A stretch of 64,000 bases of DNA from Tubulanus polymorphus (lineage: Eukaryota > Nemertea > Palaeonemertea > Tubulaniformes > Tubulanidae), in NCBI RefSeq assembly GCF_964204645.1, contig NC_134025.1:26132001-26196000 (forward strand), read 5' to 3'. Made by a program: the position numbers and the translations under genes. Shown here one piece after another: positions 1 through 58,800 of the stretch (positions are counted from its first letter, which is position 1; the number at the start of each line of letters is the position of its first letter). The notes below the pieces were generated by a model. It was not told the origin of the DNA and searched no databases. It worked only from the letters and a program-made list of their open reading frames with translations.

Positions 1-3000
1 TCGACTTTTGATTTGTCAATTTTGTCAACAGACGTGGTGCTATGGTTTTTGGTATTTTTACTATCAGTTGACATGAATGAACTGAACAGTCCGCCACTGC
101 TGCGCGATTTATTTGACGTTGATTTCATCATAGAACTGTGGGTTGAGCTTTTCTCGTCATCTTTTACTGGTTTACTTAGAGTTACAGTGATAGAACTGTT
201 TGTTTTAGACTTTTTAGTTATAAATGTAGGCAGATCGTTATCAGAGTTGGAAATACTGGCGACACTACTATTACTTCCATTAGAACTTTCATCACATTTA
301 GCAGTTTTTGTATCAGCATTATCTAATTTACTGGATGCAGAGAAATCACTGGTAATCTTGCCGATATTAGATTCCGATGTTGTTTTTGAAATCGGCGTAC
401 TTAAATCTGCCACTTTTTTCTCTTGATTTTCCGATTTAGATTTTAGAGATTCTGCATTGGATTTCTCCGGAGCCGGCGGCGAATCATCATTTTTATTTTT
501 CTTTGAGTCTGATTTACTGCTCTTTTCACTGGTGTCCTTCGACGAAGAACCCGAACTCACGCTATCAACGCTCTTGCGTTGTTTCTTCTTCGCGGAATTT
601 CCTTTATCGGCGACGCGTTTGCGTTTTGGTTCAGATCTTTGCTCCGAGTCGCTCAAAATTTCGTCATCCTTTCCACCGCCCTCTTTAAGATTAGTCGGCC
701 TCGCCGCGCGTCCTTTTACTTTCGAATACATATCACATTCGAACACGTTGATCTTGCCGTCTTTTAAATCCTCCCAGAACGTATCCTTCAGGGTCGTTTC
801 GTCATCTTCTATGTATTCAAACTTCGGTCCCTGTAATATACGTAGAACTGAAATTCAATCTCAGCAGCTGAATGATTGTCATTTCTATCACTGACAAGGG
901 AAAACCAAAATGGCACATCTCTAATAACTATGCATACTTGAGCATTTCTGATATATCTCATTACCCGTAAATGAAAAATGTTTAAAAACATAAATACTGT
1001 ATTCTCTGAGGTATATCCCCGCTGGCAACGTACCAAAATATAACTTCTTACAATAGGTTCATAGAATATCTTATAGCCTAACTGGCGAATTTGATAAAAA
1101 CTATTACCGCAAATGGAGGCTCTTGCCTGAGAGAATACAAAATATTAAAATAAACACAACTGTCTATTAAACAAAATAAGTTTACCTGAATCGAATTTGA
1201 TTCCTATAAAAGTGAAATAACCTAGCTACATTTGGAATACAGAGGTTTAATGGTATATGATGGCATTATGATGAAATCGCAATATACGACACAATCCTCT
1301 GTACGACTCATGCAATATGCCTGATAAGTAACAGAAGTTTGTACAGATTGTAATTCAGCGATCATACAGAAAATTCTTATTTTGACATTAAGCCAAATTT
1401 AATCCGAGTAATCCATTTTCCAACAGAGGCGGTTATATTTGAATTCATCTATCCGTCACAATAGCGAATCCAATTCTATGATATATAGCCTATTTAGATC
1501 AAGGTTAATCTAAAATCAATTTTACAACAAAATTTTTTTTAGTACAACAAGCAACATAGAAAAAGTGCAAACCTTAGCAATTGATGATTTCTTTTTATCC
1601 TGAAATATAAAACTGAGGAATAATTGCACATGCATAAAGCAACAAAGAATGAAATAAGGTGCTGTGAGAAGACACTATTAGAAAAGCCTAGATGAGTGCA
1701 ATGCAGCCGCCCACAGCGAAGTCGAAGTAACGGCATCATTTCAGAAATAGTTCCACCACCCCATCAATACAAGACATAGCTTAACCAGGTCCAGAGCCAA
1801 ACATGGGTTTACATATCATAAAATATGCAAGATATATTTTACTGACCGACATTCTTCTTTTCACGGCTTCATCTTTCTTCTTCTTAGCTTTTTCCTGCTG
1901 TTGCTTTTTATAAGCGTCAATCATGTCAACGCAGCTCATAAGATTTTCGTAAGGTTCCCAGGTATCATAGCTCGGGTTGTAGCCTTCCCAACGAACTTTG
2001 TACATTTCCTTACCCTGAAATGTGAAAAAAATTGTTTATCAAATAAGAATAGATCACTCCAAAAAGTAAATGTTTTTATTGCATAAGCTCCAAAATCCAA
2101 CAAACCATTAAAGCCTACTCCAATCAATTTAGCCTATTGAAATTCAAAATTGACTTAAGGCCTAATCTAATTTAGTAGGTTCAAGGGATGATTGGTTTCA
2201 GATTCAGTTTGGCAACATTTTCTGTTTCTGTTAATATACATTGCTGAAACAAAATTTGGTATCTAAGTGAAAAAGGACTTGACAATCGGGGCGGATCTAG
2301 TCAGTTACCTGCCTGTGGTTTAGTTTCACGATCGAATATTTTCAAAGCCCAACCGATTATCAAAGCTTACCACCAATGATTAGGTAACTAACTAGGGCGG
2401 ATCCAGCCTAACGCTACTACCGCTTGAGCAGTACTCACGAATGCAGAAGTGCCCTTCTATTTTTCAAGTTCTGGTAATTAACAAAACATGGTCAATTTAA
2501 ATGAGAATAATCGACAATGTGTAAACTTCTTATTCCTTCTTAATGATTTTTCTTAAACATGTCAAAATGTCATATTCTGTCGATGCAGAGAAGGACTTGA
2601 TGCCCCAAATTGACTCAGATTGCATCTCGGAGCCCAAAAAATTTAAAATTTTCTATGACATAGGTGCCTTTCTACAGCCGAGCAGTCAGTAGGCTGACTC
2701 AAAAACCTTGACTAGATCCATCCCTGGTGATCTAAAACTTTGGTTTGCTTAGCGATGGTAGCTTCAAATTTTTTTTTTCCAAAAAAGGCTGTTCACAATT
2801 CATTGATAATTCAGTTTCGATAATTCATATTTCACAAATGAATAAATAATTGAATGACATATGATGAAAACAAGATCAGTTATCTTTTGTGGGATTGTAT
2901 GCTTCTGAAAAAAAGTCAAGTAAGCCAGCTGCTACAAAATGAAAGTATCTGACAGGGATCTAAGAATAAGATAGAGCACTCAGCTAAGCCTGGAGCCTGG

Positions 3001-3211
3001 CACACACAGCGGAGGATAACTGTTAATAACAATCAGAACAAAATAATCTTACATCGATCGTTGATATTCCGACTATTTTCTCTACTTCAAAAATATCTTC
3101 GTTGTCATCTTCTTCCTCATCCTCACTCGATTTAGGATCGTTTTCAATTTCCATTTTCGTCTTAGAACTAGTAGAACCACTGACATCAATTCCCTCTTCG
3201 AATTCGGCCAT
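1..3211 (-). CDS. MPHOSPH8: MPP8-like chromodomain protein (3' end beyond window)
   Basis: Exons, in transcript order: 3211-3053, 2014-1847, 830 to beyond 1; all junctions are phase 0 with GT-AG ends. The ATG at 3211 opens an acidic N-terminus of about 37 residues. It is followed by a chromodomain (about residues 38-100) that starts EDIFEVEKIVG and continues YKVRWEGY...DTWEPYENL. The aromatic cage expected for binding methylated H3K9 is visible as F41, W62 and Y65; the 21 and 3 residue spacings equal those of human MPP8. A lysine-rich helix (KKQQQEKAKKKKDEAVKRR) follows. Exon 3 begins GPKFEYIEDDE and is then a long Ser/Lys/Asp-rich disordered stretch with basic KRKR and KKKQRK patches. In vertebrates MPP8 is a nuclear HUSH-complex subunit with C-terminal ankyrin repeats; here that part would lie outside the window. 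HP1/CBX paralogues are less likely because no chromoshadow domain follows closely and the tail is long. Family assignment is firm, the exact orthologue moderately so. Confidence 0.75.
1847..2014 (-). other. Second half of chromodomain (exon 2 of MPP8-like gene)
   Basis: The exon is 56 codons. The acceptor is TTTCAG before GGTAAGGAA and the donor is GTCAGT. It carries the W and Y of the methyl-lysine cage and the C-terminal chromodomain helix. The intron splits the chromodomain at the turn after the first beta strand. Confidence 0.8.
2285..2728. mobile_element. Decayed hAT-like MITE in MPP8-like intron 1
   Basis: The right end reads ACTAGATCCATCCCTG, whose reverse complement CAGGGATGGATCTAG has the look of a hAT terminal repeat. 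The left end GGGGCGGATCTAGTC shares GGATCTAGTC. Further inverted copies lie inside (AGTTACCT near 2304 and AGGTAACT near 2381; GGGCGGATCCAG near 2395). No ORF is present and no clear 8-bp target duplication can be read, so this is a degenerate non-autonomous copy. Confidence 0.45.
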
Positions 3212-3650
3212 TGTATCGACGGGTCTACATATGCGCGGGTGAAAGAGGTTGTATGAATATTGGGTACAATTCTAATATTCTATCATTGGTAAGCAGGTAT
3301 TATTACAAATGATAGGTAATTTCATTTTTACGATTTTATTTGATAATAATACAAATTTTTATGTCTAAGAGTCAGATTTTGTAACATTTTTTGCAGTAAA
3401 TAATAAAACGCATTATCATTGTCAATAGTGGACTAACCCATAATAAACATGACCTAGATAGTAATTAGATCATATGGTTAGGTGGCAGCACTTTCTAGTG
3501 TTATCCAAAATAAATCTTATCGGGAAAATGTCTCATTAATAAAACTGTCCTCGTGATAAAGGTGTGATGGAAAAAATCCCTTCGTGATAGATACGATACC
3601 AATAGCAACAAAAACAAAAAACTACAATAAGCACCATTTCAGTATCAAAT
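3212..3650. other. Intergenic: 5' flank of MPP8-like gene
   Basis: This AT-rich stretch lies between the ATG of the MPP8-like gene and the end of the neighbouring transcription unit. It must contain the MPP8-like 5' UTR and promoter. No TATA box or coding potential stands out. Confidence 0.4.
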
Positions 3651-5004: not shown

Positions 5005-5371
5005 TTAGTACTGAGCCCATGCCATAACCACTTTGTTGAAAGTCACGAAGACACCTTTGTTCGGTTTGCTGAAATAGAAAATATACAATTGATCAGCTTG
5101 GAAAAATGATTGTAAGCCTAGCTCATTTTCAGATTCTTACCATGAAAAATATCTGACATTGTTATAGGTTCCATCATGTTTACCATCTTCATTTTCCAGT
5201 TCTAATCCAAGATATGTATCATCTCTACCAGGGAGGTGTCCAACAAATCTTACCAATCCACGGCTAATCTGACCTGTTTGACGAGAGAATTTCACAATCG
5301 AGCCTAGTTGCACATCTGCTGGACTCCTCGGAACGTATGGCCGTTTACCAGATGTTGAAAGTTTACTTTCT
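5005..5371 (-). other. CAP-Gly domain exons (12 and 13)
   Basis: Two exons (5371-5141, 5068-5005) encode the domain. The usual GKNDG groove motif is GKHDG here; the His variant also occurs in TBCE-type domains. Flanking glycines and the aromatic strand RYFSC are intact. The protein ends 12 residues after the last beta strand (VTFNKVVMAWAQY, then TAA). Confidence 0.85.
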
Positions 5372-8300
5372 CTGAAACATGAAAAGAAAATATTCTAGAA
5401 CCAATGCTTACAAGTCTCTCGGAAGGTTAGGTAAACTCATATAACCATACATACCTTGGAGATGTGATTAAACTCTTGTTATGCTGTGTTGCAACTGGTT
5501 TCGGACTGACACTTCGAAAACCAACTGGTGATAAAACACGAGGTGACAATGGTGGTGATGAAGCAGATCTTCTCTTGCTATGAGATGCTACAAATAAAAT
5601 GATTAAAAATCACACCAATGTATAGCTACTACTACACTGCCGTTACAATATATAAAACGAAACTTACATCGGGTGCGTAAATGTTTAGTGGGAATACCAA
5701 TTTCTCGTTCAACTTCGCTTAGAATCGACGATGTGGAATTCCCATCATCGTCATCATCTTCATAGTTTTTCAGGTTAAAGCTGTCTGTGAGATTTGTTCT
5801 TGGTAACGGTCGACTGCCTTCAAAATTTTCATTATGAGTTGAACGCGGCGATCGAACGTGAACGTCATCAACAACGCGGTAACTTGTTCGACCATTACTC
5901 ATTGCATGACCTGCAATATTATGAAAGGTTTTTAGATAATAGGCTAAAAGATGTAGTTATGTAGCACTTTTTCACATTTAGGGAGCAATGAATGAGCCAA
6001 TTCCAACTGAAGAAAGAGTGGAAGAAAGTCAATACGCTTGCTTGATTAGAATGGTTATGGTACAACTGTAGGTTAGGTAGTTAACGAATAACGCAATTGT
6101 ACCTCTAGGTTTAATTGGAGGCATCTTCTGGTTGGTACCAGAACGCGTTGATGGTGGATAGGGATAACGTTTTGGATATTCCGCTAACTCATTATCATTA
6201 AAATCAATCGGTTCAAACATTCGCGTGAAGAGATTTGATGTAAGGAATGCTGTTGAGTCACTTCGGTCAGTAAGTAATTGTTCACCTTTCGCGTCTAAAG
6301 TATCAACTGAAAGGAACATTGTGCAAACCATAAACCATACATGTATAACATAGAACATCAGTGCTAAAATATGACAACAAATTTGCGTACATAAAATCCC
6401 CATAAATTTGCTAAACTAACTGTGTAACATAATAATATCGTCACTATTTATTCCCCCTGTGAGTGGTGATTTGGTTCATTTGTTTCAATTAAAAGAACGA
6501 AAAGCGCATTAAAATAAAACAATGAATTCCAGAGGGTAACTAACAGTAACTAAGTGAGTACATAGACAACAAATATGTGTACTTGTTTCACAATGAGACA
6601 TGCATAAAACCGCCCTATATATGTGAACCTTACATATCGAATAAATGGTACTACATTGTATATGCATAAATACAAACTAACTCACTTTCATCAAGGTTGA
6701 GATTTCTTCTAGCTCTACTAGCACCGGCACTTCGCAATTGGTTGTTGAAGTGTGAATAACTCGGGTATGGTTCAGCATCAGTTAAATCATCACCATCTAA
6801 GATATACAAAAACACAATGTACTAATTTGACAAGTGGAAAATGTGATCAATTCATTTTGATAATGGATTTTATAGAGTTACCAGTCAAATGGCAACGAAA
6901 GTAACTGTATTCAATTCAGACTATATAATCAAAGAAGTAATGACCACATGAAACTGATACTAAATGAAATTATCCGGTGAATGTAAGCTACATATTTCAT
7001 TGGAATAACATGCATTTAACGTATGTAACCTAAGGACACAAGCTTAACACGCAAACATACATACATATAGAGCACACAAATAAGGAATTATACCAGCAAG
7101 ACAAAGCATTAAATATTCATTCAATAGCCAACATTACATGCGTTTGCTTGAATTGACTGTTATTTTGCCATACCTACTGAACCATGAAATATTCAGTCAC
7201 AGTAAGCTCTCCATAACACGAAACATAGCAACAGTCCCTTAAAAACTCACTCCATACCTAGACGGTATATACACCGCTTTATCACAAAAAGCCTAGTTTA
7301 AACATTATTCTCTATGCTTCAAAAGGCCTTCTACAATTCATGAATATAATAACAGCAGACACAAGACTTCAAGTGAATGCAAATGAATGATCTCATTAAT
7401 GCACTGCAATGCTATACTCTGTCAGGAAGCCATCAAAAACAGTAACATTAAACTCTATTCTTACCAACTAAACTAATATGCTAAATGGCGCAACGTATCC
7501 AGGAATGAAGTTACCGGTAGATTAATTTCGCATAGCCTTTCAATAGTACCACCTAAGTTTATGTAGCTACTGGCAACCATTGAATATGCAGCAATGACAG
7601 ATAACGCTTAGCACTCTCACATATACACACACGCACATTTTGTACATGAAGATTAAAATGAAAAGAGTATTTATTTGTCGTACCTGCCATATTGCTTGTT
7701 AAGTTGTGAGACTTTTGGCCATCATATATAGTGCTTTCCGTCGCATAAGTTCGATTATCCTCTAAATACTTTTCAACTTTCTTCACACGATCAGAACTAT
7801 CCGCTAAACTTTCAACTGGTGCCATACCTAAAAACCATGCGCAATTAACCATTAAAATCTGACGATTATCAAGAATAATGATGGCAACAGCAATCACGTG
7901 ACTTACTAGATCTTTCAAATTTCTCCTTTGAAATTCTTTCTTGGTTGATCGAATTATGGTAGCCATTTGTCAAAGCAGACGCATCATGTTTAACTGCTCT
8001 TCTTTCGGCGCGTAATCGTAGCTCGGTTAACTGATCTCTTAATTTCAAATTTTCTTCATTCAGTTCACTATTTCTGTCACGCAATGCTCTCATATCAACG
8101 CGTAGCAATTTCATCTCTTCTCTCATACGATCTGAGGAATCATTGAGGTATTGAGTGCTTTTCTTCTTTAAATCTCGTATCTATAAAATCGAAGACAAGA
8201 ATCCTGTGTTAACATCTAATCAAAGAAGCGATTGAAGGAAAAAAGTTACATAAGAATTAAAATTGTACCTGTTCAGCGAGATATTGATTCTCTGCTTGTA

Positions 8301-11300
8301 CATCTTCAATGTTCATTGAATTAGCAGTTCTCAGACCATCATTCTCTTGAGTTAATTCTGCAATCTTCTTTTCTAGAGCGCTGAATTCTAATGCAGCGCT
8401 TTCATGCGCTTCTTGTAAATCCTGAACTTGGCTGCGTAATTCCTCTGCAAATTTAGTAGTTTCATAGATGAGTATCAATAATTACAATCGATAATCGATA
8501 ATCAAGATTAAGAAGGCTTTATTGTCATAATGCTAACCATTTTTACGTTTCAAAGCATTTGGATTATCGGGTGAATATCTATCGATAGAATTGTTGGATT
8601 CGCCAGAGTCAGATTGTCTTTGTTCTGATTGTAATCTATCGAGTTCAGCCTTCAATTTTATCACTTCTGTAGCCAGTGTTTCCTTCTCGGCGATCACTCT
8701 GTTGTAACTACTCTCGTCTTGATGCTGAAAAATAAAAGCATTCATAATGAATCGTACAGATCTTATCTATGTTAGGAAATAAAATGTTTTATGAGAGCCA
8801 GCGTAGTTTATCTATCACGTGATCGTTTCTGTTAGTATTCTATCAGTTCACATTTGAGTTCATTAATCTAAAGAATTACAATTAGCTTACTCCATCCATT
8901 CTCAGTAATATCCTGATGGAATATGAATAGAGTCAGTTTTGGAACATACTTCTACTGACAGCAATGAATTATTAACTCAATATCATAGTTTTCCGATAGA
9001 AGTGAAAGTACGTACTGTAGTCAAAGCCGGTTTCCGCCTTTCTCTGTCAACTTCACGCATAAGGACACTGTTTTCAGCTTCAAGGTCTTGAATCTGATGT
9101 TGCAATTTTGTGACTTCGATATCTTGATCTTCTAAACGTTGATTCGCGTTGAACAACTCACTTTCAAGGAATTCAACTCGTTTTTCAACAGTCGTTCTCT
9201 GTAATCATATAAAAATCAATCACTATTTGAGGAGGTTATTCTCGGTATAACAAAAGCAATAAAGATACAGCGATTCTTACCTCAATGGGTGTAGGTGCAT
9301 GAAAAGCATCTCCATTTGCTACTTTTGGAGTCAGAGTGCGCGCAGAACTATGTGTTGACAAAGATGTTCTTGATGTAATTAATGGCGATTTCATGTTTGG
9401 TGGTAATCCAGCGTTTGAACGATTATAAGTGTCCGGTGTCATACTTCTATCATCATAAGGGGTATATTTAGCAGGTGTAGTTGGTGTTGGATTGCTGTGA
9501 CTGCTACCCACTCGATAAAACGGCACATCTGAATTGATCGGTGCATTCAGTACTTGTTCGCTCGCGTATTTCACATATTCGGGTTCGGGTTTCTTCAACT
9601 TTTCGCTATGATATTTACTGTTAACCGGTAAATCGCCTTGTGACGACGAATGACTACGCGGACTCATTTTCGGATGATTTTCGCTAGTCCTACTACCCGT
9701 ACTTCCTAACCGATCGATGCTGCCACCGAACCTATCTGCACTTTTGTAAATCGCCGAAGAAAGGTGTGGACTCTGTTGAGGAGAAATCCGATCATAACTT
9801 CCAGCCCTGTGCCCACGCAGCGATCCATTAGAGGCATGCACGGGTGAAGAAGCAGTCTTCTCAATTATCATTTCATTTAGTTGTTCAGCAGATCCTGATT
9901 TATGCATTTGTTTCTGCAGAAGTGCCTCGATTTTTGACGAATGCTTAATAGCTGCCATCGCACTGCTACTCTCACGAGGATTTCTTAACATCGCTTCGTC
10001 TTCTTCAACATCAGGCGCTACCTTATAACTTCCTTCATCTGGATCTAAAAAATTCAAAATTTTCGAATCGATTATTGGCCTGTTGCAATATATTTTCAGT
10101 GAGCGCCAGTGATAGTTTACTCATAATATATAGGTTATCAAAAAAAAAATATTTGAAATTTTTTCGTAGTCAAGTGCCTGATAGTCCTAACATTTTGATA
10201 AGCTATATCAATTTATATAGCTATTCTAGAATCCAAGCAAATATAGATAAAAATTTTCCCCGAGACACCAAAAAGGTAAATCACCACCTTTGTCCGGTTT
10301 TCGCAATTTTTCAATACCGATACACACATCCGTAGACGAACAAATAACACTGATTTCTGTATTTCTGATACTTTCAAAATATCTCTCCATCATTTTGCGA
10401 ACTTCCATCAGATACAACCGGGCACATAGTAATAATAATACATGCTTGTATAGGTGGATTCTCATTAGGTATTCATTTATCGACCTTCTCGGTTAACTTT
10501 ACTCACATTGTTCATTCATTCATTCATTCATTCATTAAGCCGTTCATCAATTCGGTCCAATATAATGTAGCATTTCTATGTTTCTATATATAAAGCTAGC
10601 AAGTGATCATTGTTAAGAAGATCATTGTCAAGAGAAATTGACTGTACGCGATATATTCCTATATTCAGATTCTACTGTTTAGATCTATGATTCACCAGGC
10701 CACGGACATTTTATATGAAAATCAGCAAGGGGGCTTTCCTGGTTCGATTCAATGTATGAACTGAGGTTAAATCATCCAATAACACAAAATGTCACTGCGG
10801 TTACAGGTGAGATACACTGTAATAAACTCAGGAGTCTGATCAATGCTCAGTTGTTATCGTTTGCACCTGTTAGAAAAGTGAAATCAGGACAAAAATTTAT
10901 TATGTCCACTACAGAATTTCGATACATTATCGTTCGAACTTTCATGAATCAAAAATAAACGTTGTTATGAATGTGATAACAAAAAACTTGAAGAAGTGAA
11001 TAAAATAGAAGTTGGATATTTTACCGTTATCTAATTCATAAGAATACTGTCCTAACATCGTTTTATCTCCCTGTATATATCCAGAAATGGTATGTTTTCA
11101 ACATGTAAATACCGAGCTAATGTCTTTACAGAACAAGTATTGGTGTATCCATATGAATATAGACACCCTGTAGGAAATGTTCATTCACCCATTTACCTGT
11201 TATACACGAATGCTAGAAAACAAGACTGAAATCTGTTTTTGGGAATTCACTCATGCATAAAAATCAGACATACCAACCACGCACAATACAGAAGTTATTA

Positions 11301-14300
11301 ACAGAATTTCAATAGCATACAATGCCCCATTTCAGATATTTAATGCCAATTACTGCGATATTTAATTACCTCTTTTGAAAAGAAATATTTTGAATCGGGT
11401 GTAACAAATTTATGATCGTTACACATATCATTGAATGAACTGTTTGTGTTGGCTACATAACAAAAACAAAAGATCCTTAGAAATTATCCATTCGTTTACG
11501 GTAACTGTTTTTCCATTTTTCGAGTATAACAAATTTAAATCTATATTTTGAGAAAATTGTCGAAGAGCAAATACAGCATACACCTTACCATCGGATAGAT
11601 ATTCATCCGCGTCAACAAACTGAAATTGTACTACAGGACGCACGTACTGATGACTCGGTAACGATTGATAGATATTTTCCGTCACAATCGGATAATGTAG
11701 TTCTGGCAACACAGGTATTAAGATATCAGGATGAGTTGCCAGTCCGCAGGTACAATGAACCGGTACATTGCTAGCTGTTTTGTTACAATATGCGGGAATT
11801 GTAGTCATTTTTTTTCGATCGGAGCTAATCCATTCAATGAGTTACACTACGCTGATATCAGTCAAATAAAAGATTTTTCAAACAGAATTTTCAATACTTT
11901 CGTTATCAAGAATATTTCGCAAAATTTACAAATCAAATAATTGTGCTTGATTTTGATTCAACAGATTAAGAGAAATAATTAGCATACATAAAAAAATATA
12001 TATTGTTTATAATTAGCAGAATTACGGTTATGGAATTGTAATTACACATAAATCAACATAATATATATTTGGTTATCATAATTAGATTATAAACTTTTTA
12101 AAGTAATAGATAACTGACTGATATCAAATATGATGACAGCAGCAGCAATAGACCAATACGCATAAAATCCTGAGACGATTGCTATACATTTTGCAGGCAC
12201 ACGTCGGCAGTATTCTACAGTACTTTCATTGCGAGCGAGACATGCATGAATAGACAACGCTAAACAACCAAATGCAAGCCAAAATAATTATTCATTCGTA
12301 ACTTGTTCTGACTGGTTTGACAAAAAACTGTTTCCTATGTAGGACACTTTGACTGATCACTTCATAGGTAGTTTTAAGGGATCAGTTACCAAAAGAATTT
12401 AACTCAAAAGTCATTAGACAAATAAAGTCAAATTTCGTTCCTATAACAGGACATTACATTTTGTTATAAAGACATTACATTTTGTTATAAATTTTTTGTT
12501 AATTTCCCAACATTCGACTACTTAGTTCAAACATTTCAGATAAATGGCAGAGACCTAAAAATACCTGACAATGGTCTCTAGACATAGTTCAAAATGCTGT
12601 ATCATTTGTTTCAAATTTTTGTTAATAAATTTCATTTAAAATCTTTTGAATTTGTAAACAGTGGGTATTACACATGATAAAGGCTAGAAAACAATCTTGG
12701 ACTAAGAAACGCTCCCTCCAATAAACCCTAGTTTGATAAATCATAGAAAAACAGAATAATGGATACAACTTTTTTTCTATTTCTGAAAGAGATGTAGATG
12801 CTCTAATTCAGTTCCTAATTTTCCTTCATATTCTAAATGACCTACAGGTCTAAATATTTTTGATAGTTGAATGCCGAATAGTTAAAATGGAGGTTCCTCA
12901 ATACATAAATAGGTAAGATTCAAGAATAGGGGACTAGTGGTTAGGTTTAGGTCATTATATATCATCATTACTTATTTGATTACTATCACTACATATATAT
13001 TGCTATAGTCTCCTATTCTTGAATCGCACCCATAAATACATGTACATATAAACACAATTTTTAGTATAACATACCTGATGAAACAAGAGAGCCAAAAATT
13101 ACATTAGTAAGAACACTAGCTGCTACAACTACACCGGTCATTACCACATTCACCTTGACTTAAAGACAGTTTTTAAAGCTCTAAGGAAGTGACTTGAGAT
13201 ATCTGAATCACATACTCCACACCGGTATGCACCAACATTCTTAAACAGCTAGAAATTCTAGAAGACGCTCATAAAAAATTTAATATGTACATTATTCTCG
13301 GAACAGCATATATATCGAATATCAAAACAGATATGCCTTACTCTCCGAGAAAGCCAACAATGAAATAAAATCGCCACGCATGAATAGGTTCAGATTAACA
13401 CTCAGCAAGCAACCAATTCCTGTGGTTTACTTAATTGAGCACCAGAAGAGTTAATCCTATTACATCAGATCTGTTCAATGCATGTCAAAACATCGTAACA
13501 AATATTCATTAAAATCCTGTTTTCAAACATGATTCAACTAACATAAATCTTTATCTATGATACACTCATCTATCTCCCGTAGGCTATGTAAATGCTACAG
13601 GCTGATGGTTGTTGGTGACATTTTAATTGAGCTAGCTACAGGTGAAGTACAACACGCAAGGTAAATTTGGTACCATGACAACTACACTTTACAATAAGTA
13701 TACGTTTCCCATTAATAATCGGATTCTAGCATCGAGAGAGAAATAGATTGGGTTTAACCGAGGGGGTATCGATTGAACAAACCTGTTTTCAAATGCTACA
13801 CTTAAGCCAAATACATTCGAATCAAAAGCATTGATTCCGATTCAAAAACTATTTTGCACAAATTGTTCTGAAGACGAAAGTATTACAGAAGAAGTATAAA
13901 GTCTTACCCGAGTCCAGAAAGCAGATAATGTTTGGAATTCGATCTCATAGGCAACGAATATCTTTGAGATAGGATTCCATGAGTCCATTATAATTATTGT
14001 GGACAGTAGCATACAAGACATTATGCTTATTCAAATATTTACTTAGCCCCCTGAAAATTGAACTGGTCTTCTCTATTTGAACATTAGAAAAACAAATTTG
14101 TCCATTTACAACTGACCAAAGTCAATAATTCTAGCTCAAACATAGGTTAGTGGAGTTATACATTATGGGACTTTCAATTGGAGTTAGTTAACAAAGACTA
14201 AAACAATTGTGGCTTTTCGAATGTTTAATATGAACTATCGCCATCAAGCATCTAATAATTCCGAAGTCTCCTATGTGATGTATGAAAAGATACAGCGCTA

Positions 14301-15405
14301 ACTTACCAATCTGAACCGTACTGATAATATCCTGAATATCATCAGTGGACTCTTCTTTCAAAGTTTCATCTGGGCCAATAATTTCCTTCACAGCATCAAT
14401 TATTCCTTGCACTTCTTGTTCTTCACTTTCGGAATCAGCAGCTACAGCAACAGAGCCTTCATTCGCAGGATTACCATCATCAGAGCCTCCGGCAACAACA
14501 GTTACATCATCTTCCTCAATCTCAGAAACCTTTGCATCATGGATTATTGATGTAGCCACTGATGTCTCATCATCATTATTTTCTAAATCTTCAGTAATCG
14601 TGTCATCACATACAATTTGATTATTTCCAGGTTCAGGTGTTTTTATAGGTATATCTGATTCTGTTTGTGCTTCAATCTGCTCCTTCATTTCATCAGTTCC
14701 CATCACTGCACTGGCCTCAGATGACTCAGCTGGAACAGTTTCTACTGGTTCTTCAGCTTTATCAGGGGATTCGGAAGTTCCATTTACTTCAGTTGTTTCT
14801 TCATTATTTTCAGCAACAACCATATTATCACTTTCTGCAATAGATTCTGTTTTGGTTTCTTCATCGATTTCGCATGACTGATCTGGGGCATCTTCATTAT
14901 CAACTTTTTCAGCCGGATCGTCAGGGCATTCAGAAGTTTCAAATTCCTCATTCTGTAGTTCACTTTCAGCAACAGCCAAGTTTGAACCATCTTCTATGAC
15001 AATTGGTTCTGCGACAGCATCATCAGCATTTATGTCTGATTCAGGTTCAAGGTTTTCTATTTCTTTCACAGAATCTCCTTTTTCTTCTTCAACTGTCTGT
15101 CCCTCTGATTCTACTAATGAAATATTACCGGATGCTTGTGATACTTTTTCCCACGCAGCAAGGCGTGTTCCTGATGCTTGATCATCAGACTCACACTTGG
15201 TATTTTCCACCAGTTTCTGGATTTCCTCCGACTCAATACTATTTGAACTGACGTCCATAACTGGATTCGCTGTCATGCCGTTTATCGCCGCAACTTCTCG
15301 ATCTTCGTCGGTAGTTGATTCAGACCTAACATCAACAGGTCTTATGTCTCCTACATCTGAAGTGTGTTGCGGCTTATCCAATTCAATCTCATCAGCTGCA
15401 TCCAT
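5005..15405 (-). CDS. Coiled-coil protein with C-terminal CAP-Gly domain
   Basis: Proposed exons: 15405-14307, 10044-9281, 9198-9016, 8724-8538, 8444-8269, 8180-7907, 7827-7684, 6796-6686, 6306-6103, 5910-5668, 5587-5455, 5371-5141, 5068-5005. All junctions keep frame, giving 1270 residues. The ATG sits in a strong context (A at -3, G at +4). Residues 1-366 are highly acidic and low-complexity. Exon 2 is a Ser-rich disordered region with SP sites. Exons 3-6 (about residues 622-865) form heptad-rich coiled coil. Exons 7-11 are a disordered SP-rich tail. Exons 12-13 encode a CAP-Gly domain at the extreme C-terminus (GLVRFVGHLPG, LGLELENEDGKHDG, RYFSCKPNKGVFV). CAP-Gly domains bind tubulin or EB C-terminal tails, so a microtubule-associated role is inferred. 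No known family with this layout is recognised (CEP350 and KIF13B differ). Joining exon 1 to exon 2 across a 4.2-kb intron is the least certain step. Confidence 0.6.
7907..9198 (-). other. Coiled-coil exons 3-6 of the CAP-Gly protein
   Basis: Four exons (9198-9016, 8724-8538, 8444-8269, 8180-7907) have continuous leucine/isoleucine heptads rich in E, K, Q and R, for example VEFLESELFNANQRL and EENLKLRDQLTELRLRAERR. A Ser-rich break lies at the end of exon 4. They probably form a long parallel dimer. Confidence 0.75.
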
Positions 15406-18400
15406 TATTTCCACTCTTATTCCCCTTAACACTTTGATTAGAAAATATATAAGTGAATGTAAGAACCGTGTGGTTTTTAATCTCAATAGGTCCGCATTTG
15501 GTGCTAACAATACAATATATGCCTTTGAGCCTCAATACACTCTCACACTGCACGTTGAGGCGTAACATAAACAAGACATTTTAGAAGAAAGAATACCGGT
15601 CTTACACCGCGATCGAACCTCGTATCAGAGCTTCATTCGCCACCCTAACAAATAATTTATAACCCTATCGATAATCTGCCGTTATTGTCACTAACAGACG
15701 TGTTATCTCATGTTTTCGTTCACTGTCACTTTAGCGTATTATACTAGTCGCGTTTCTGAGAACATAGAGCACCACAGACGTACACACAGTTTACGAGTTG
15801 TTTGCCAGCAGTGGTCTACCAATTCATAACCATAAAAATATTTATCTATTCAAGTGATAATATCTGCCGGTATATCCATACATCAATTATCGGCAGTTAG
15901 AACCGCTGTCTGTGTTGAATTCACACGGTTGTCAATTATCGATATGAATTGATAATCACCAATTGGTTTACCCAAGGGAACTATAATATGCAATGGCCTA
16001 AACTGCTAAGACAATTTCTAGAATATTACGCTGTTATCCTTTTTAAATCTCACGAATCGTTTTATGGCCAGAAGTAATACTACAATGAGGAGCTACAATG
16101 AGGAGAGCTGAATAGTTATGATCAACCATTAGACCAATAAATCCTGAGAAAAGTCACGACGACCATTCAACAGTGCCTTTTATTCGTATAAAAATGACAC
16201 TTTCAAAACTAACTGCTTCAAGAGATAGTGCTTATGTCTAATAGAACAACGACTGTATAAATTTACTAGCTTAAAAGGCTACTCAATATGTACTCAATTA
16301 ATGTCTAAGCCACTGTTTACCGGTTTTTGTAAGTTCCTGTGACCGCGTTATTGTCATCGGCAATGTTTTCGAATTAGAAATTTGTTGATAAATGCAAAAG
16401 GTTTCAAATTGAAATCATACGTAGGGTACCGATCATAAAGTAACAACACCATTATCCATAAACGTAAACCAAACCGGAAGATTGTATCCACAATACAAAG
16501 TGAATGAAGCTAAGTGAATGAAGCAGGCCGCTCATGCTCCCAACTCAACAATAAACTCATGACAATTGTCATGTAAATTAAGGTCCTTGAGACGAAAAGC
16601 AGCCAACAGCATCAGGTGAAGTTTATTAGGTTTCATTACGACTATTATTAGCGCAGATTAATAATTCAGCAATGTAAATAGGGAGCTGAATGAAATATGC
16701 TATGGTACTCTATGATGTTGTAACTGAAGGAGTTTTAAAGTAAAGTTGTGGTGATTTATATTACAGCTGTCTATGAGCGGGTATTCCTTTTAATGTCATT
16801 GCACTTATCATAAATGAGTTATACTACTTGATGTTAGTATTTTTACATGATAGCATCTAAACTATTCCAATTCATTAATAAGCACAGCAAAAATAGGTAA
16901 AAGCAAGTTAAGAATAAGATAAGATAGCTTACACTCTTCAGATCAAGGATTTGTTAGTTTTGATGCAAAAAATTATCTCACCTCTTTTTGTCAATATTGT
17001 CAAATTTCATCATCTATCAAAATGATAGGTAAGAAACACTGATCAAAACAAAACTATAGAATGATTAATGAACCTACCCGTATAAAATTAGTATTCTTTT
17101 CAATTTTCTGAGATTGTCATATTCTTACCTTCCTCCTTAATGACTAGATTCACTTCAAACGTAAAACTGTTTACGTGGAATGTTTCGACAGCGTACGAGA
17201 CATCATCGATTAGCAGATGAGATGTATGACTTCCACAAGCAACAATCACTGGCAACGATTCGTAGATACCCTTAAATGAATTCCACGTCAGCGGTACATT
17301 CAACCCCTGTAAATTTAATAGAGTGACTCGGTACTTAAGCACGAAAGCTGTAATAAAGAAAGTATCTTCAAAGTTTCAAACTTACTCCAAATATAGTGGA
17401 ATGCGTACTCGGTACCTGTAAATAGATTTAATAACTCATGTTAATCTATCATATGATTCATACCTAATATTCGAGTTTCTTTGCTCTAGAATCATTGATT
17501 ATTTTGTATACGGGTGTTGCTCATGATGCTGTTTATTGATGATAAGCGTGGATTAACAATTTATGGGCAGCGACTTAAGATACTTTATATGAGAGCAAAA
17601 AATCAATGATGCAGTCGTGACAAAATGAGGAAATAGCTCCTCAATGCCTCCTAAGCATAATGATATAGGCCTAGGAATGTTCTCTGAAGAAAAACAAAGT
17701 GACAAATATAGGCCTCGAGAATGCATGAAATATTACTCACATGTAAGAAATCTCCTTCTAAATACAATACACCAGCATGAGTGCATACAGTTTTCGCCCA
17801 ACGGAAAGTACAACTCACATGAGATCGGCGACAAGTGGGTAGCATATCCTTCTTGTATCAATTATAGAACATCCTTAAAGAACAAAGTACAGTATGAATT
17901 GTGAGAAAATTGTCAATTTCTCTTGCAGAAAATCTGTATTTTCATATACATTGATGTTCACACAATTTTAAGACATATAACTACAAGATCTGATAATTCC
18001 ATCACGATTGAAGTTCCTGATTCATTATAGATAGAAAGTACTGTCTTTCTAGGTCTACTAGTAGGCTAATATCGAGTATCTCAATACAAACCAATGAGAT
18101 AGAGAACAGTCAGGGAGAGCAAGGCCAGAGCCTTAGTGAAATGAGTGCTGCTGATGACCCAAATGAGATCTGTATCTGGAAGATAATCACACAGCATCCG
18201 TTACACCACCACTACCACAGCTATGGTAATCTCATCATCCCCACATCGAGCATTCATTACATACAGTCAATATGACAAAGCCATAGAGTTGAGATTTATT
18301 CATTTTTCCCGGAAAAAAAGTCTATTCTCATACAAAAAAAGCAAGACTGAAAAGAGAGGAGGGACGTCAGCTTAACTTACCCTGCAAAGATATGTGGTAA

Positions 18401-18438
18401 ATACAATTACCGAGTCCAAAATTCGTTCACTGTCAAGC
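10226..18438 (-). CDS. Unrecognised gene, at least eight exons (5' end unknown)
   Basis: Exons chain in frame on the minus strand: 18438-18381, 17851-17741, 17415-17386, 17306-17129, 11774-11589, 11452-11370, 11070-11025 and 10401 onward. Phases agree at each junction (0,0,0,1,1,0,1). The product reads through HAGVLYLEGDFLH, STIFGGLNVPLTW, YESLPVIVACGSHTSHLL, CTCGLATHPDI, VLPELHYPIVTENIYQSL, QFQFVDADEYLSD and SVICSSTDVCIGIEKLRKP: a mixed, globular-looking, Cys-containing composition. The last exon either runs to a stop at 10226 or splices at 10274/10273 into the coiled-coil exons (phase 1 fits). I recognise no family. The 11.4, 11.07 and 17.1-17.4 kb exons are the strongest; the first two and the 10.4 kb acceptor are weak. 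It overlaps the CAP-Gly gene: the acidic exon lies inside its 17129-11774 intron. Confidence 0.45.
10511..10536. repeat. (TTCA)n microsatellite
   Basis: About six and a half uninterrupted TTCA/CATT units within an intron. Confidence 0.9.
12450..12491. repeat. Perfect 21-bp tandem duplication
   Basis: GACATTACATTTTGTTATAAA occurs twice without a gap, in an intron. Confidence 0.85.
12917..13025. repeat. Fold-back inverted repeat
   Basis: GATTCAAGAATAGGGGACTA at 12917-12936 pairs with TAGTCTCCTATTCTTGAATC at 13006-13025 with one mismatch, around a loop of about 69 nt. It could be a small MITE or a local inverted duplication. Confidence 0.7.
14307..15405 (-). other. Acidic first exon of the CAP-Gly gene
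   Basis: One 1099-nt exon encodes 366 residues dominated by E, D, S, T and A, with a predicted pI far below neutrality and no aromatic core. It ends phase 1 at ATTG before GTAAGT. A TATA-like stretch lies just upstream on the minus strand (around 15440-15450). Alternatively it could be an internal cassette of the unrecognised gene, entered at an AG just after the ATG, where the phases also match. Confidence 0.65.
15406..17128. other. Upstream region of the acidic exon; no gene seen
   Basis: No coding potential was found. It should hold the promoter and 5' UTR of the CAP-Gly transcript and is at the same time an intron of the unrecognised gene. A small duplicated motif (ATGAGGAG...CTACAATGAGG) lies near 16083-16105. 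Confidence 0.4.
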
Positions 18439-50676: not shown

Positions 50677-52884
50677 AATAAAAATCTTACCAACGACAAT
50701 ACCTCCGGCTTGTGACAACAACGGGGTCCAATCTTAGAAACGTAGGCCTGGGTTTTATTAGATCCTCCGACCTCTCCGGCTTCAAGCTAACAATGCCAGC
50801 AATAATAATGGTGAACTGTAGTAGTATAATAAACGCTAGCTTACACACCCAGCGGTAACCTACCGCAAAAAGGTCCAAATTGACCATGAAGAATCGAGCA
50901 TTAACGTCATCCGTCCAGTAGAGTCTTTAGGAAAGTTCGTCAAACTGGCTTTACACCGATTAATCGTTTAAAATAGGGTGAAACTTAGCTCGATGTCAGC
51001 ATGTTCTTATCATAAACCACCATTATACACTGCTACACTAGCGGGAATACGCCGCACTACAGCTCCGGGTTAAATACCTGCGCGATACTAGATTTCAGAA
51101 TTTATCCCAAAGCCAGATTATGCTACTAGATACAACAATACGACAAATTTCATATGCTGAAATCGACAAGTTGAACTGTCGATACGTTTTATCTCTGAAA
51201 TAAAGAGTTTGGTTATGCACTATTTCTGGCGTCGGCCCTCGCTTCGCACATGAATACACTCGGCTAATGCTTGGTCTCGATTAATTTGGGCTGTTCCCTC
51301 ACTCTCCCTCCTAAACCTATTCACATTATAGAATAACTATAGAGATCGCGCAAAAATGTAGTTTCCTCATCTAAAGTGAATATAGTTTTGGTTTCTTAAG
51401 CGAACATGGCATATATGCTAGAAATCCATGCCAAAAGTAGGGATAAACTTTAATTCGATATAATCGAAGAGAGAGGGTTAATATCCCAAGCTGTCCAATT
51501 ATTGTGTTTATTCATTTTTACGCGGCTATTCAAGTGAAGCAAACCGAGCTGTCTGAAATTTCCCCGTCGCATTGCTCGTGGTGCCTTATGATTTTAACGT
51601 TACAAACTGAGAAATGGACTCGTTTATATTTTTACAAATTAAAAATGGATAAATAACATTTTATGACATGCTGCCAATGGTATTCTCGTCCCAAAACAAC
51701 ATCCCACTGAATAGGCAACGGAAAGTTCAAGTTAATTCTATTAATGGCCACGATGTAATGGGGGCGGTACTGTACCGATTGGAGCAAGAGATAATTTTCC
51801 CCAAGATTCGAAAGATTATAAGTCAGGTCGAAAGAAATGTCTCAAATTATGCGGTTCTTCCAAATTAGCTCATTTGTTTGTATTTCTGCATTTGAGATCC
51901 TCTTCTTACGGTTCATCTTCTGTGTCCAATTCTTTTCAGTTGTTTAAGCTCCCCATAAACATTTTATCCTAATCAAAATACATAATTAATCCCTTTTTTG
52001 TTTGTATCTTTATATGTACCGGTATCTTATGATATATCTTTTCTATGAGACCGGATGACGTTTTTTAAACGAAAAGCAAATTTTCAAGGATTTGGTTATG
52101 AGATTTATCAGTGAAATAAATAAATTTATGATTGAATTTCATTAACTTGTAGCGTCCTCTGCCCGGTTTATAAGTTATTTCCGGGTTGTGAAATATCAGT
52201 TTTTTAGCAAGTTTCGTGTTTTAACTTGCGTTTTTTTGTGTAAGACAATGGATTTATAACTGACAGTTTGTATTTACATTAATGAATTGATAAACAGCAT
52301 TTGATTCACGAGTAAGTAGCGAACGGAATTGATTCAGTTATGCTTTGAAATCGAACGAACATGAAAAATGCTTCGTCTGCTAAAATTTAAATTTTATTTT
52401 AATTAAGAAAACAATTGACGGATTTCTGGCACTGCCAGCCAGAGCAGTGCCACCAAAGCAATGCAACACATTACTTCTGATATTCGTATCGTATTGACAA
52501 CATAAACTGCTTTTATAAACTACACTTGATAAAAAGCAGGACCAGGGTTGTTACATTTTTCGTACATTTTTTCATAGCACAACTAGAACATATGAGATTT
52601 GATGTGACCCTGGCCTTCTTACACCTACCCCAAATTCACTATTATACAATCATATTTTACCACATCATTCATTCATAATAAAATCAAATCAAAGATTGAG
52701 AGAGTATTTATCTGCAGTCCCATGTATATCTTTGGCTTTGCAGCGTTCCAGGGATATTCTTTGGTTTGCAGTTTTATGTGTCCAACTAGTTGAACCAAGG
52801 CTGTAGTTGGCAGATCAAATGATTGAGCTTGAGGCTCAACACTGAGTAAGGTTAAGCCACTTTTCTCTAATTTCAGTTTGAATC
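50677..52884. promoter_or_regulatory. Shared 5' region of ARID1 (minus) and ASCC3 (plus)
   Basis: The start codons are 2.2 kb apart and face away from each other, so this interval should contain both promoters. ASCC3 has an acceptor (TTCTCTAATTTCAG ending at 52876) eight bases before its ATG, so an untranslated first exon lies upstream. On the minus strand a donor-like GTTG/GTAAG sits at about 50690, just upstream of the ARID1 ATG. The small open frame at 51668-51868 shows no family resemblance. Confidence 0.5.
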
Positions 52885-55800
52885 ATGGCAGTTCCGAGAC
52901 TTACTGGAGCAATAAGGGCATTTTCAAATGTATGTGCTCAAGATAATAGTAGTAGTGATGGTGACGAAAATAGTGGACCAAGTCAGGATCTTAAACTGAA
53001 GCAGAAATGGAGAACACAGCAGATTGCAGAAAATCAGATGTCCTGGCAAAAACTGGCGAGTAAAATCACTCGCAGAATCAAAGCTGACAAGGATAATGTG
53101 ACCGCTATTCTCAGAGAATTGACTCAAGTTGCAAAGTTAATAGGTATGTTATCTTGCGTATACATCTTGTAGTCTTGACTTGAGTTAGATTTGAATGTGA
53201 ATAGTAAATTAACTGAGTTTAACCACCATATTAATTCACAAACCTGGTGTGAGCTTTATAATTTGTGGCTTTAATTTTAGTTGGTGTCGACGCCTTTCCT
53301 GAAGTAATCGAAGGCGCAGCTGTTCATTTGTTTCAAACGTTTTGCAATTCGACCGTCGTAAAGAACGCTGAGACGAACAAACTCCGCGCCATATTTGGTC
53401 CGTTTCCTGCTTCAGCGGCTACGAAAGCTTGTCAAGTGGTGCAAAGAATCGTGGCTCATTTACCCGATGATATCATAGATGAACTATGCACTGTTGATGA
53501 TGAAGTGAACGTGGCGAAGGAATTTGGAAAAAATATCAAATTTGAAGCTGCCGAGTTCCCCATTGTCGGAGAGTTGGAATTCAGTTCCGATACTGATTCG
53601 GAAGATGTTAATGTAGAGTTTGATATGAAATATTCGAATATCGACCACGCTTCTGCCGTTAAAGTTAACGACCGGCAAAAAACGTACAGCAAAAAGTATG
53701 ATGCGAACTGGCTTTTGGCCCAAATAGAATCGGAATTTGATTCCGAAAGTTCTGTGTCGGCTCCAGAAATGTGCACGACAGTGTTGAATATCTTGGCCAC
53801 GTCGAAGTCAGATGACGAACTCCAAAACGAGTTGTTTGAGTTACTCGGATTCGATAGGTTTGAGTTGATTCAAGAATTACTGCAACGACGCTTGCAGGTG
53901 GTGAAGTCCGCTGCAGATATGGAGAACGCCCTCGCATTTGTTAAAACTGCCAGTAAGACTCTCTAAGAGACCATTGTCAGATGTGAATACTATCACGTTT
54001 GTTTTACTGACTTGTCTTTTTATCTCTAATTTGATTAATTCCACAAATTTCTTATTCATTTTAAAGAAAAAATATATATTTCCTTCCAGCTACGCAGAAG
54101 GTCACACCTGAAAATCGTCCCAACTACGGCTGCCAAGTTACTGTCCAGGTATAAAGAGCAGTGTCTTGTACTTCCAATTAGAAGTAATATAATTACCAAC
54201 TTTGATGTCTTTGATGATATAAATCCTCATCATAAATTTTGCAGACAAGCCAAGAAAAGCATGTCCAGAAGCAAATGCGAAAAGATGAGAAGAAATTATT
54301 GAAAGGCAACAATAAATTAGACTCTGAGGATATGGCAACAGCTGCAGCTCTTGGATTTGATCCACACGCCCTACGCGCTAGCAGGTCAAGTTAAAAACGT
54401 TGATCACGAAATATTTGCGACATAGATTTACTGAAGCCTGGCCTTCAATGTCAAGTGTATTCTAATTGTAGGGAAGCATCGTTGATCGCGGCTATGAATC
54501 GACCGATGTTCAGTAATAGTAAACCGTATCAACAGGCACCAGAGGTCTATCCCTATGTGTTTGATTCTATGGTCGAAGCCCGTCAAGCTTCAGCCTTCAT
54601 ATCCGGCACAAAGGTAATACATCAAACCAAAAACAATCAATCTATAGAACGGAGTTGTTTTAGGACTTGTTTCTGTACGTAAAAGTTTTGATGATATTGT
54701 TTCTAGATGTATTTACCTGCTGAGTTCAATCGTAATAATACGTCAATGTACGAAGAAATTGATATACCTCCATCTCAAGGTAAAAGCATAGCAGATGTTG
54801 GTCGCCAGTTGGTACCTATATCAAGTCTTGATGAGGTAAATATATCATGATAAACTGAAGAATTGATTGCATGGGTATATCAGTTTTGTTTGATAGAATT
54901 TTTACATTTTCATTCATATCAACAGATTGGTCAGGTGGCATTTCAAGGTACAAAATCTCTGAATCGGATTCAGTCAGTAGTCTTTGATACAGCTTACAAA
55001 AGTAATGAGAACTTACTTATCTGCGCTCCAACTGGTGCTGGTAAAACCAATATCGCTATGTTGACCATTCTTCACGAAATCAAGCAGCATTTATCTCAAG
55101 GGGTTATCAAGAAAGATGAATTCAAGGTAACTAAAGATAAGACAAATCAGTGATGATGTTAAGACAGTAATCATAGAGTTCAAAAGTTTTACTGAAAGTT
55201 CAGCTTATCAACAAGCTTAGAAAATATCTTTGATTGAAAAAATAGTTTCCAATTATTTTCGCCAAATTATGATTTCAGGTAGTATATGTAGCACCGATGA
55301 AGGCTCTGGCTGCAGAAATGGTCAGAAATTTCGGTAAAAGACTTCAGCCGTTGGGTATTGCTGTGCGAGAGCTGACAGGTGACATGCAACTGACTAAAAT
55401 GGAAATTCTTAAGACTCAGGTATGAATAGTTAAATTTTCAACCTCAGATGAGTTCGCAATTGGGAAAATGATATTATTTCTATGTCTTGCAATTACAGAT
55501 GTTGGTAACAACTCCAGAAAAGTGGGATGTTGTAACGAGGAAAACTACTGGAGATGTGGCTTTATCGCAGCTCGTTAAACTTCTTATTATTGATGAGGTC
55601 CATTTACTTCATGATGATCGGGGTGCTGTGATTGAGAGTTTGGTAGCTAGGACATTGAGACAGGTATGATTCATAAGTCTTCCACGTTATTGAGAAAGTT
55701 CAGATCTGGTGTATTGATTCATATCTGTCGTGAACGTTTTTACAGGTTGAGTCATCGCAGAGCATGATCAGAATCGTAGGATTATCCGCTACTTTACCAA

Positions 55801-58800
55801 ACTATCTCGACGTCGCGAGGTTCCTACGCGTAAATCCTTATAAAGGACTGTTCTTTTTCGATGGAAGATTTAGGCCGGTGCCTCTCGGTCAAACGTTTAT
55901 AGGAATCAAAGCTATCGGTCGATTACAGCAATTACAAGATATGAATAAAGTCTGTTACGATAAGGTTTTTGAACAAGTGAAGAAAGGAGAACAGGTAGGA
56001 GATATAGCAATACTTGAATCATAAATAATATGGTTCATTAATCTAGTTCCACTTTTTAACTGCTGTTTTATATTGTCTTGTTGTATTAAAGGTGATGGTA
56101 TTTGTTCATGCGAGGAATGAAACAGTTCGAACTGCCATGACTTTACGAGAGTTGGCAAAAAATAAAGGTGATATGGGATCATTTTGTCCCGCTGATGGTC
56201 CCAGATTTGGTGAAGCTATGAAACAGGTAGATACATCATTTGTATGTATTAGGCCAGGAAAAAGAAGGATTTATTTAGTTATCATTAATACTTTATTTTA
56301 TCAAAGGTTATGAGATCTCGTAATAAAGAAATGAAGGAACTGTTTGCGGATGGGTTTAGTATTCATCATGCTGGTATGCTACGCTCTGATAGGAATATGG
56401 TTGAGAAATACTTCGCTGATGGTCACTTACGGGTGTTAGTTTGTACGGCCACGCTAGCTTGGGGTGTTAACTTACCAGCTCATGCAGTCATTATTAAGGT
56501 TTGTCTTTTATGAGAATATTTTTTATTGTAAACATAAGTTTTAAGAGAATATTTACACTGGGTAATATGAACACAGTAAAACACGTTAGAAGCAGAAATG
56601 AGATTGGTTCTTGTTATATACTTTCAGGGCACTCAAATATATGATGCAAAGCGAGGTACGTTCGTCGATCTCGGGATTCTAGATGTAATGCAGATATTTG
56701 GTCGAGCAGGTCGACCACAATTTGATAAATACGGTCACGGTACTATTATTACCACTCACGATATGTTGTCGCATTATTTGTCTCTGATGACTCGACAAAA
56801 TCCGATTGAAAGTCAATTCACAAACAGTCTGAATGATAACCTGAATGCCGAGGTAGGTCTTTTGAGATTTGACTAAGAATATATGCAAATGTTTTATTGG
56901 TACTGTTGTAAAGTTCTATGCGTTTCTTGTTTACCAGATATCACTCGGAACAGTAACAAACATTGATGAAGCAGTTAAATGGCTTAGTTACACGTACATG
57001 TTTGTAAGAATGCGATGTAACCCTCTAGTTTATGGAATCGGTTACAATACCATCCAGGTATTAAAAATCAAATATACAATGTATATTTATTCCACATTTT
57101 CGTGGAGCGTTGCTTTTCTTTCCACATTTTCGTGGAGCGTTGCTTTTCTTTCATGGTATGGAATTGTTATTGTTGTAGGAGGACCCCACTCTAGAGAATC
57201 ACCGGCGTGAACTTGTAGTAATCGCAGGTCGGGCTTTAGATAAAGCTCACATGATAAGATTTGATGAAAGAACCGGTTACATGGCGTGTACTGATCTCGG
57301 AAGAACGGCTAGTCACTTCTATATCAAATACGAAACGGTTGAGGTAGGGGAACAGTTTCTCAACTATGACAATGTCTGGGTTAGATCACAATCTTGACTG
57401 ATTAGAACTGAATGGCATTTATTGTACACATTCGATATTTTTCTATAGGTTTTCAATGAAATGTTCGGCGCACTGATGACTGAGGCGGATGTATTCTCAA
57501 TGGTATCACAAGCTCAGGAATTTCAACAAATTAAGGTATACAATGTACATGTATTTAGTTACTGGGATATATTTCTCAAATACAGCCAACACAAACCATT
57601 CAGCTTAATATGAAAGACCAATTTGAGAATGAAGAATAGAGTCTGAAATGTTTCCTTAAGCTTGTTGTGTATTCAACATTTCGACTATATCCTAATAGTC
57701 ATCCTCGGCAGGAATTCTCTGATTCTTTGTGTAGGATTTCATATTATCATTACAAGATGGACAGCGCTTGCATCTGATTAAGCTTAGTTTAATTTAACGT
57801 CTAAACTTTTATTTATAATTAAAAGGTTCGCGATGAAGAAATGGAAGAACTAGAGTTTCATCATCACGATAGTTGTGTTATGCCAGCAGCTGGTGGAGTC
57901 GAAAATGCGCATGGAAAAGTGAACATTCTGCTGCAGACTTATATCTCCAGACGAGGTGTCGATAGTTTCTCATTGATTTCTGATCTATCTTACGTTGCTC
58001 AGGTAACAAAACAAAGTTTCTATATTTTTTGATACGTTTGAACAAATTTTCACATTCTCTCGTTTGATTACAGAATTCCGGCCGTATCACTAGAGCGCTG
58101 TTTGAGATCGCTTTACGGAAAGGTTGGCCGATAATGGCTGGACGACTGCTCATGTTGAGTAAAGTCATCGATAAGAGACTTTGGGAGTTCGAACATCCGT
58201 TACGACAATTCACCGTCTTATCTCCTGAAATCCTGCACAAAATTGAAGTGAAAAAACTCACTATTGATAAACTAAGGGAGATGGATTCTAAAGAAATAGG
58301 TAATTATAACGCTTAAAGAGTTTAGATTATCAGAATGCTATTCATTCATTTGATACATTATGTTTAACATTATAGGACATTTAATTCATCATGTAAGGAT
58401 GGGTGGAATGGTGAAGAAGTGTGTCGAACAGTTTCCAACTATTGGATTAGAAGCTACAATCCAACCGATTACACGAACTGTGTTACGAGTGCGATTGACC
58501 GTTACACCTGAGTTTACGTGGAACGATAAAATACACGGCAGCGGTTCGGAACCGTTCTGGATCTGGGTAGAAGATCCCGATAACAATCACATCTATCATT
58601 CCGAGTACTTTCTACTTCAAAAGAAACAGGTATGATTTAGATAATAAGTGAATTCACAATTGATGATGTTTAGATAGATATATTTTTCAAACATTTCAAG
58701 GTTTTAACTAAATCTTATCATCGGAGAAACAAATATTTATGTTTCTCTGATGGTGAGATTTAGTAATTATTAGGGCCCGGTTCCACAGTTGTGGGTTAGA

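Follow-up and report, generated by a model that had tools for sequence, protein, structure and literature searches.

Dystonin, plectin and dynactin p150/p135 are cytoskeletal linkers whose N-terminus is changed by alternative first exons. At the locus described here too, several upstream exons could splice to one acceptor (10044, phase 1), but the CAP-Gly domain lies at the C-terminal end of the protein and is common to all models, and alternative promoters are putative. Overlapping genes on the same strand provide a second point of comparison. PMC2330155 reports fewer such overlaps than expected in five metazoan genomes, and lists 75 nested and 30 embedded arrangements of the parallel type among human overlapping pairs (n = 749). 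A gene nested within its host on the same strand would therefore be an uncommon arrangement, but one of a known kind. Same-strand nested ("parallel") animal genes likewise consist of a short multi-exon chain inside one host intron, as does the candidate gene discussed below (X), which differs from them in being predicted from sequence and in encoding an orphan protein. Embedded parallel pairs, the 30 human examples of PMC2330155, are what an interleaved arrangement of exons would resemble, whereas the splice junction that would produce interleaving at this locus is putative.

The window, i.e. the whole stretch of DNA that was analysed (64 kb, C1:26132001-26196000), belongs to a genome of 268 Mb in 77 contigs. 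The host gene, candidate gene X and a further exon, Y, are all located on its minus strand (Table 1). The 13 joined exons of the host gene yield 1270 aa without internal stop, with an acidic head, coiled coils and, at the C-terminus, a CAP-Gly domain. This domain matches PF01302 (E 4.6e-13, 49.3 bits vs a cut-off of 26.5), and the PDB sequence matches of the gene are CAP-Gly domains as well (CLIPR-59, CLIP4, CYLD, CEP350, dynactin and others; best 3.9e-10), so that the domain, judged by these matches, is genuine. The orphan exons, in contrast, show none of the features of the CAP-Gly protein family. The acidic first coding exon (15405-14307) lies on the same strand as, and between, the two blocks of unrecognised exons, just as the original prediction had it, and reaches a score of 62.1 when treated as an internal exon starting at 15325. 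It is followed by intron 1 (14306-10045, 4.3 kb) and by acceptor 10044 (7.8), which opens a long phase-1 coding frame. Exon 5371-5141 was divided by the chain search and was kept whole in the gene model. Further along the window lie what we take to be an ARID1-like gene (27272-50800, minus strand) and, presumably, an SNRNP200/ASCC3-like helicase gene (52882-63200, plus strand).

Table 1. Positions (in the window) and properties of the exons and neighbouring genes discussed in the text.
Feature	Position	Strand	Properties
Chromodomain gene	332-3224	-	PF00385
CAP-Gly-domain exons	5371-5141 and 5068-5005 (stop)	-	part of CAP-Gly gene
Other 12 CAP-Gly coding exons	5005..10044	-	12 splice-site pairs; coiled-coil and CAP-Gly exons
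Second coding exon, CAP-Gly gene	9281..10044	-	common phase-1 acceptor 10044, score 7.8
X terminal exon (candidate)	10847..10866	-	acceptor 8.0; five whole codons and stop
X exon 3 (candidate)	11025..11070	-	acceptor 3.9, donor 4.3; phase 0 in, phase 1 out; picked by chain search
X exon 2 (candidate)	11370..11452	-	acceptor 5.1, donor 5.2; phase 1 in, phase 0 out; picked by chain search
X exon 1 (candidate)	11589..11808	-	ATG 11808, donor 6.4, phase 1 out
Acidic first coding exon, CAP-Gly gene	14307..15405	-	ATG 15405, donor 6.4, phase 1 out
Exon Y	17129..17347	-	72 whole codons; phase 1 in, phase 1 out
Possible exon upstream of Y	17386..17415	-	30 nt; acceptor 5.6, donor 4.8; GC 0.44 (36-bp bin)
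MFS transporter	starts 19.46 kb, upstream of the unrecognised exons	+ (opposite)	PF07690

A codon-usage score derived from 48 ORFs of at least 200 aa, many of them encoding cadherins and GPCRs, failed to tell the known CAP-Gly exons from chance. Since codon usage was thus uninformative, exons were evaluated by a combined splice-site and coding score, with simulated DNA and reversed real DNA (287,368 bp) as controls. The splice-site matrix combines generic frequencies with those of 12 donors and 12 acceptors from the CAP-Gly gene. On this matrix, the sites of the CAP-Gly gene itself score 4.2-7.8 (donors) and 5.5-9.7 (acceptors), and the 99th percentile of all minus-strand GT and AG dinucleotides lies at 5.8 and 6.5, respectively. 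Coding scores were derived from three-periodic Markov models, the training ORFs of which include CAP-Gly exons also used as controls, and the intron-trained simulations include introns adjoining the tested region. An argument from CpG depletion (methylation) was abandoned, since the overall value for the window (1.03) shows no depletion. CpG and GC profiles likewise do not discriminate between shared and separate promoters.

Exon Y is very likely real. Its acceptor (17347, 8.1) and donor (17129, 7.9) are at the level of the sites of the CAP-Gly gene, and its GC content of 0.41 stands out from flanks of 0.30 and 0.27. The exon scores 21.4, compared to a maximum of 16.1 in four simulated 64-kb sequences read on both strands, where seven candidates reach 15; in the 287,368 bp of reversed DNA, four candidates score at least 21.4, none of them with both splice sites at 7.9 or above. 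An alternative acceptor at 17306 (8.0) would yield a 178-nt exon entered in phase 0. As exon Y contains no methionine codon, an upstream exon is needed, and the possible exon at 17415-17386 would be in phase 0 at both ends when joined to 17306. Chains upstream of 17347 are not above chance, with equally good ones found in 38/400 and 42/400 simulations. On its downstream side, terminal exons that would complete Y are available before 15.85 kb, with a best total of 20.8 (terminal exon at 15980). Polyadenylation-type AATAAA motifs are present at 16627 and 16184, both before this terminal exon, and suit only the weaker ones at 16723 (17.7) and 16509 (19.1).

The sequence TACCGAGT is present twice in the same sense in this region, 81 bases apart (17414-17407 and 17333-17326, minus strand), one copy at the start of candidate exon 17415-17386 and the other between acceptors 17347 and 17306, possibly as a small local duplication.

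The second block of unrecognised sequence, at 11.8 kb, contains an open stretch that ends in a strong donor at 11589 (6.4). An automated chain search assembled it with three further exons (11808-11589, 11452-11370, 11070-11025 and 10866-10847) into a chain that runs in phase from ATG to stop and would encode a protein of 122 aa. The chain scores 17.6, compared to a best value of 14.5 among 1000 simulated 2.1-kb tiles. Nor is it reached by any of 208 non-gene tiles from the real sequence of the window (best 15.5), these tiles overlapping one another and having been drawn around hand-set exclusion territories that cover the genes, X and Y. One of 208 reversed non-gene tiles does so, and 14/618 reach 17.7 when all reversed tiles, including reversed real coding DNA, are considered. 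The part from donor 11589 to the stop scores 13.7, which was equalled in 0/1000 simulations. Open stretches of at least 180 nt that lead from an ATG to a donor above 6.3 number 11 in the window, and only 11808-11589 lies outside the exons of recognised genes as provisionally assigned; the reversed control holds four in 287 kb (approx. 0.9 per 64 kb). The GC content rises from 0.27 to 0.42 at 11808-11589 and falls back to 0.30, as at known exons, with successive bins from 11786 to 11679 at 0.39, 0.47 and 0.47. This rise starts near 11858, as would be expected if a short leader preceded ATG 11808 in this exon.

The X exons have low coding scores (with model A, 1.0 for 11771-11591), so that the evidence for X consists of splice sites, phases and GC content. 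Taken singly, exon 11702-11589 scores 12.5 and is at chance level (four simulated 64-kb sequences contain 45 candidates of at least 12). No AATAAA or ATTAAA was found between 10847 and 10000. The original prediction had extended the gene to 10226, and this end had to be abandoned. A terminal exon at 10356-10226 has a score of -1.5, 10465-10229 as a whole does not resemble coding sequence (-10.6 and -11.4), and sub-exon 10364-10285 (10.8) is at chance level. Ending at 10847 instead, X forms a complete multi-exon ORF that lies wholly within intron 1 of the CAP-Gly gene and on the strand of its host, as same-strand nested genes do.

Both X and Y thus exceed their statistical controls and have compatible phases, and unrecognised coding exons on the strand of the CAP-Gly gene are supported statistically. 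Our preferred reading, which we hold tentatively, is that intron 1 of the CAP-Gly gene harbours a small nested orphan gene and that Y is a separate upstream exon. X (11808-10847, minus strand, 122 aa) would be a four-exon gene with its own transcription start just upstream of 11.85 kb, and would be removed as part of an intron from the CAP-Gly pre-mRNA. Exon Y would belong to another, partly seen transcript, which may end before 15.85 kb, and no exons would interleave. We infer separate promoters, translation of X from ATG 11808, and further exons as partners of Y.

It is unlikely, by comparison, that Y and/or the 11.8-kb exons are alternative N-terminal or cassette exons that are spliced to acceptor 10044 in phase 1, in which case they would presumably replace or extend the acidic head of the CAP-Gly protein. 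A single locus with alternative promoters had been the second reading offered by the original prediction. Such splicing would be compatible with the phases, since donors 17129, 14307, 11589 and 11025 all leave phase 1 as acceptor 10044 takes it, and the 11.8-kb exon provides both an ATG and a strong donor. A chain in intron 1 that starts with ATG and exits in phase 1 scores 15.7, which none of 150 simulations reaches, and passes through exons at 13948, 13248 and 10356 that are short and weak. Starting from 11589, the best phase-1 exit (7.5) is matched in 5/1000 simulations, and a value of 6.6 in 9/1000. When the acidic exon was left unmasked, the search, which allows a single gene only, linked everything in phase with a score of 272.3 (Y, the acidic exon, 11702-11589, 11452-11370, 11070-11025, 10356-10285 and the CAP-Gly exons). 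However, the strong in-phase acceptor and stop at 10866-10847 (8.0) would be left unexplained by alternative exons of this kind. The phase-1 exit from 17129, matched by 2/120 simulations, is also weaker than the exit by stop from the same donor, for which the observed chain score of 18.1 is reached in 0/120 simulations (best simulation 18.0). Finally, the phase shared by donors 17129, 14307 and 11589 and by acceptor 10044, which was predicted and is indeed observed, is weak evidence because phase 1 is the commonest intron phase in the CAP-Gly gene (7/12). A meeting of all these exons at phase 1 is roughly what one would expect, and the main lesson from this locus at present is that phase agreement alone is a poor ground for joining exons.

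The interleaving of two same-strand genes had been put forward because the two blocks were thought to join across clean GT-AG borders. These are found at 17347-17129 (8.1/7.9) and not at 11.8 kb, where the usable acceptors score 0.0-3.2 (12 known acceptors of the CAP-Gly gene, 5.5-9.7). Among the open phase-1 acceptors into the 11.8-kb exon, 11774 scores 0.0, 11702 scores 3.2 and 11630, which would leave 42 nt of the exon, scores 1.3, while acceptor 11851 (3.9) leads to an immediate stop. Use of 11702 would turn a GC-rich open stretch into intron; the 150 bases upstream of it have a GC content of 0.42, compared to 0.29-0.39 upstream of ten measured internal exons of the CAP-Gly gene, and are therefore not intron-like. 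Joining is still possible since donor 17129 is in phase with acceptors 11452 (5.1) and 10866 (8.0) as well, and the route from 17129 to 11452 totals 31.2 (17.5 for the Y part and 13.7 for the remainder). With the acidic exon masked, the best joined gene found by chain search scores 35.7 and comprises 17306-17129, 13795-13783, 13248-13223, 11702-11589, 11452-11370, 11070-11025 and 10866-10847, i.e. it depends on two additional weak exons (13795-13783, 13 nt, and 13248-13223, 26 nt). The two-gene model scores 38.4 (20.8 for Y and 17.6 for X), both totals including chance-level exons upstream of Y and the extra gene carrying no prior penalty. The difference between one gene and two is at noise level, and the models tie.

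An orphan gene made of the 17.35-kb exon and the 11.8-10.85-kb exons, whose intron would contain the acidic exon of the CAP-Gly gene, is in our view somewhat less likely still than alternative exons of the latter. The location of its exons on both sides of the acidic exon (17.35 and 11.8 kb), their fitting phases, the masked chain of 35.7 and the possibility to bypass the weak acceptor by splicing 17129 to 11452 or 10866 are consistent with it. These have to be weighed against the weak acceptors into the 11.8-kb exon (11702, 3.2; 11774, 0.0), the equally good score of X alone with its own ATG, and the under-representation of same-strand overlaps in metazoan genomes (PMC2330155). Of the two-gene proposal, the unrecognised exons have statistical support; the join from 17.1 to 11.x kb fits in phase but does no better than simpler models. 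An orphan gene straddling the first exon of the CAP-Gly gene, a doubtful prospect as just discussed, would mean one locus with two unrelated proteins, possibly also chimeras, and interleaved exons of compatible phases would represent a natural test of how the spliceosome separates two same-strand messages.

A recursive-splice-like motif at 13074-13075 (minus strand, 6.9/6.9), also located in intron 1 of the CAP-Gly gene, was set aside because motifs of this type are too common to be of note: the 64-kb window has 6 back-to-back acceptor and donor motifs with both scores above 5, and the 287 kb of reversed DNA have 17.

The protein predicted from X is an orphan without known domain. No match to Pfam was found for it at any E-value up to 10; Pfam searches with single and joined orphan exons gave no match over cut-off, and searches of PDB sequences with the orphan exon proteins gave none up to E 10, in agreement with the initial view that the exons belong to no recognised family. 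The idea that exon Y might be C2-domain-like was discarded for want of Pfam support. A scan of IMG/VR for relatives of exon Y found none. Searches of the genome with Y (as protein and as DNA), with X exon 1 and with the surrounding DNA returned the self-match only, each search having scored one candidate, so that distant copies could escape. A single-sequence AlphaFold model of exon Y had a pLDDT of 50.9 and was too poor for use.

This isolation would also be expected if Y were a lone relic or unused exon and the X chain a statistical accident, which we regard as the least probable explanation, with a small likelihood. The absence of relatives of Y and X exon 1 in the genome, PDB and Pfam (over cut-off), and of Y in IMG/VR, is compatible with chance or decay, as are the lack of a significant exon upstream of Y, the low coding scores and the poor model of Y. 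It is less easily reconciled with the splice sites of Y, which are at the level of known exons and accompanied by an open frame and a GC step, or with a score of the X chain above all 208 real non-gene tiles. If X is a real nested gene, as in the reading we tentatively prefer, it would add another orphan gene nested on the strand of its own host, of a kind easily overlooked by annotation.

Two observations were made elsewhere in the genome. Long ORFs in loci L001-L040, many of which encode cadherins and GPCRs, favour NCG codons for Ala, Pro, Ser and Thr. When scored for this type of usage, the nine tested exons of the CAP-Gly gene were negative and three exons of other genes ranged from about 0 to +2.5. 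The genome may possibly hold two codon-usage classes, the second of which was seen in one gene only. The genome-wide CAP-Gly matches also include pairs with identical or near-identical scores on two other contigs, i.e. C3:3536891 with C13:112484, and C3:3611946 with C13:185783. This pairing of scores suggests that contig C13 represents a duplicate, from the other haplotype, of part of C3.
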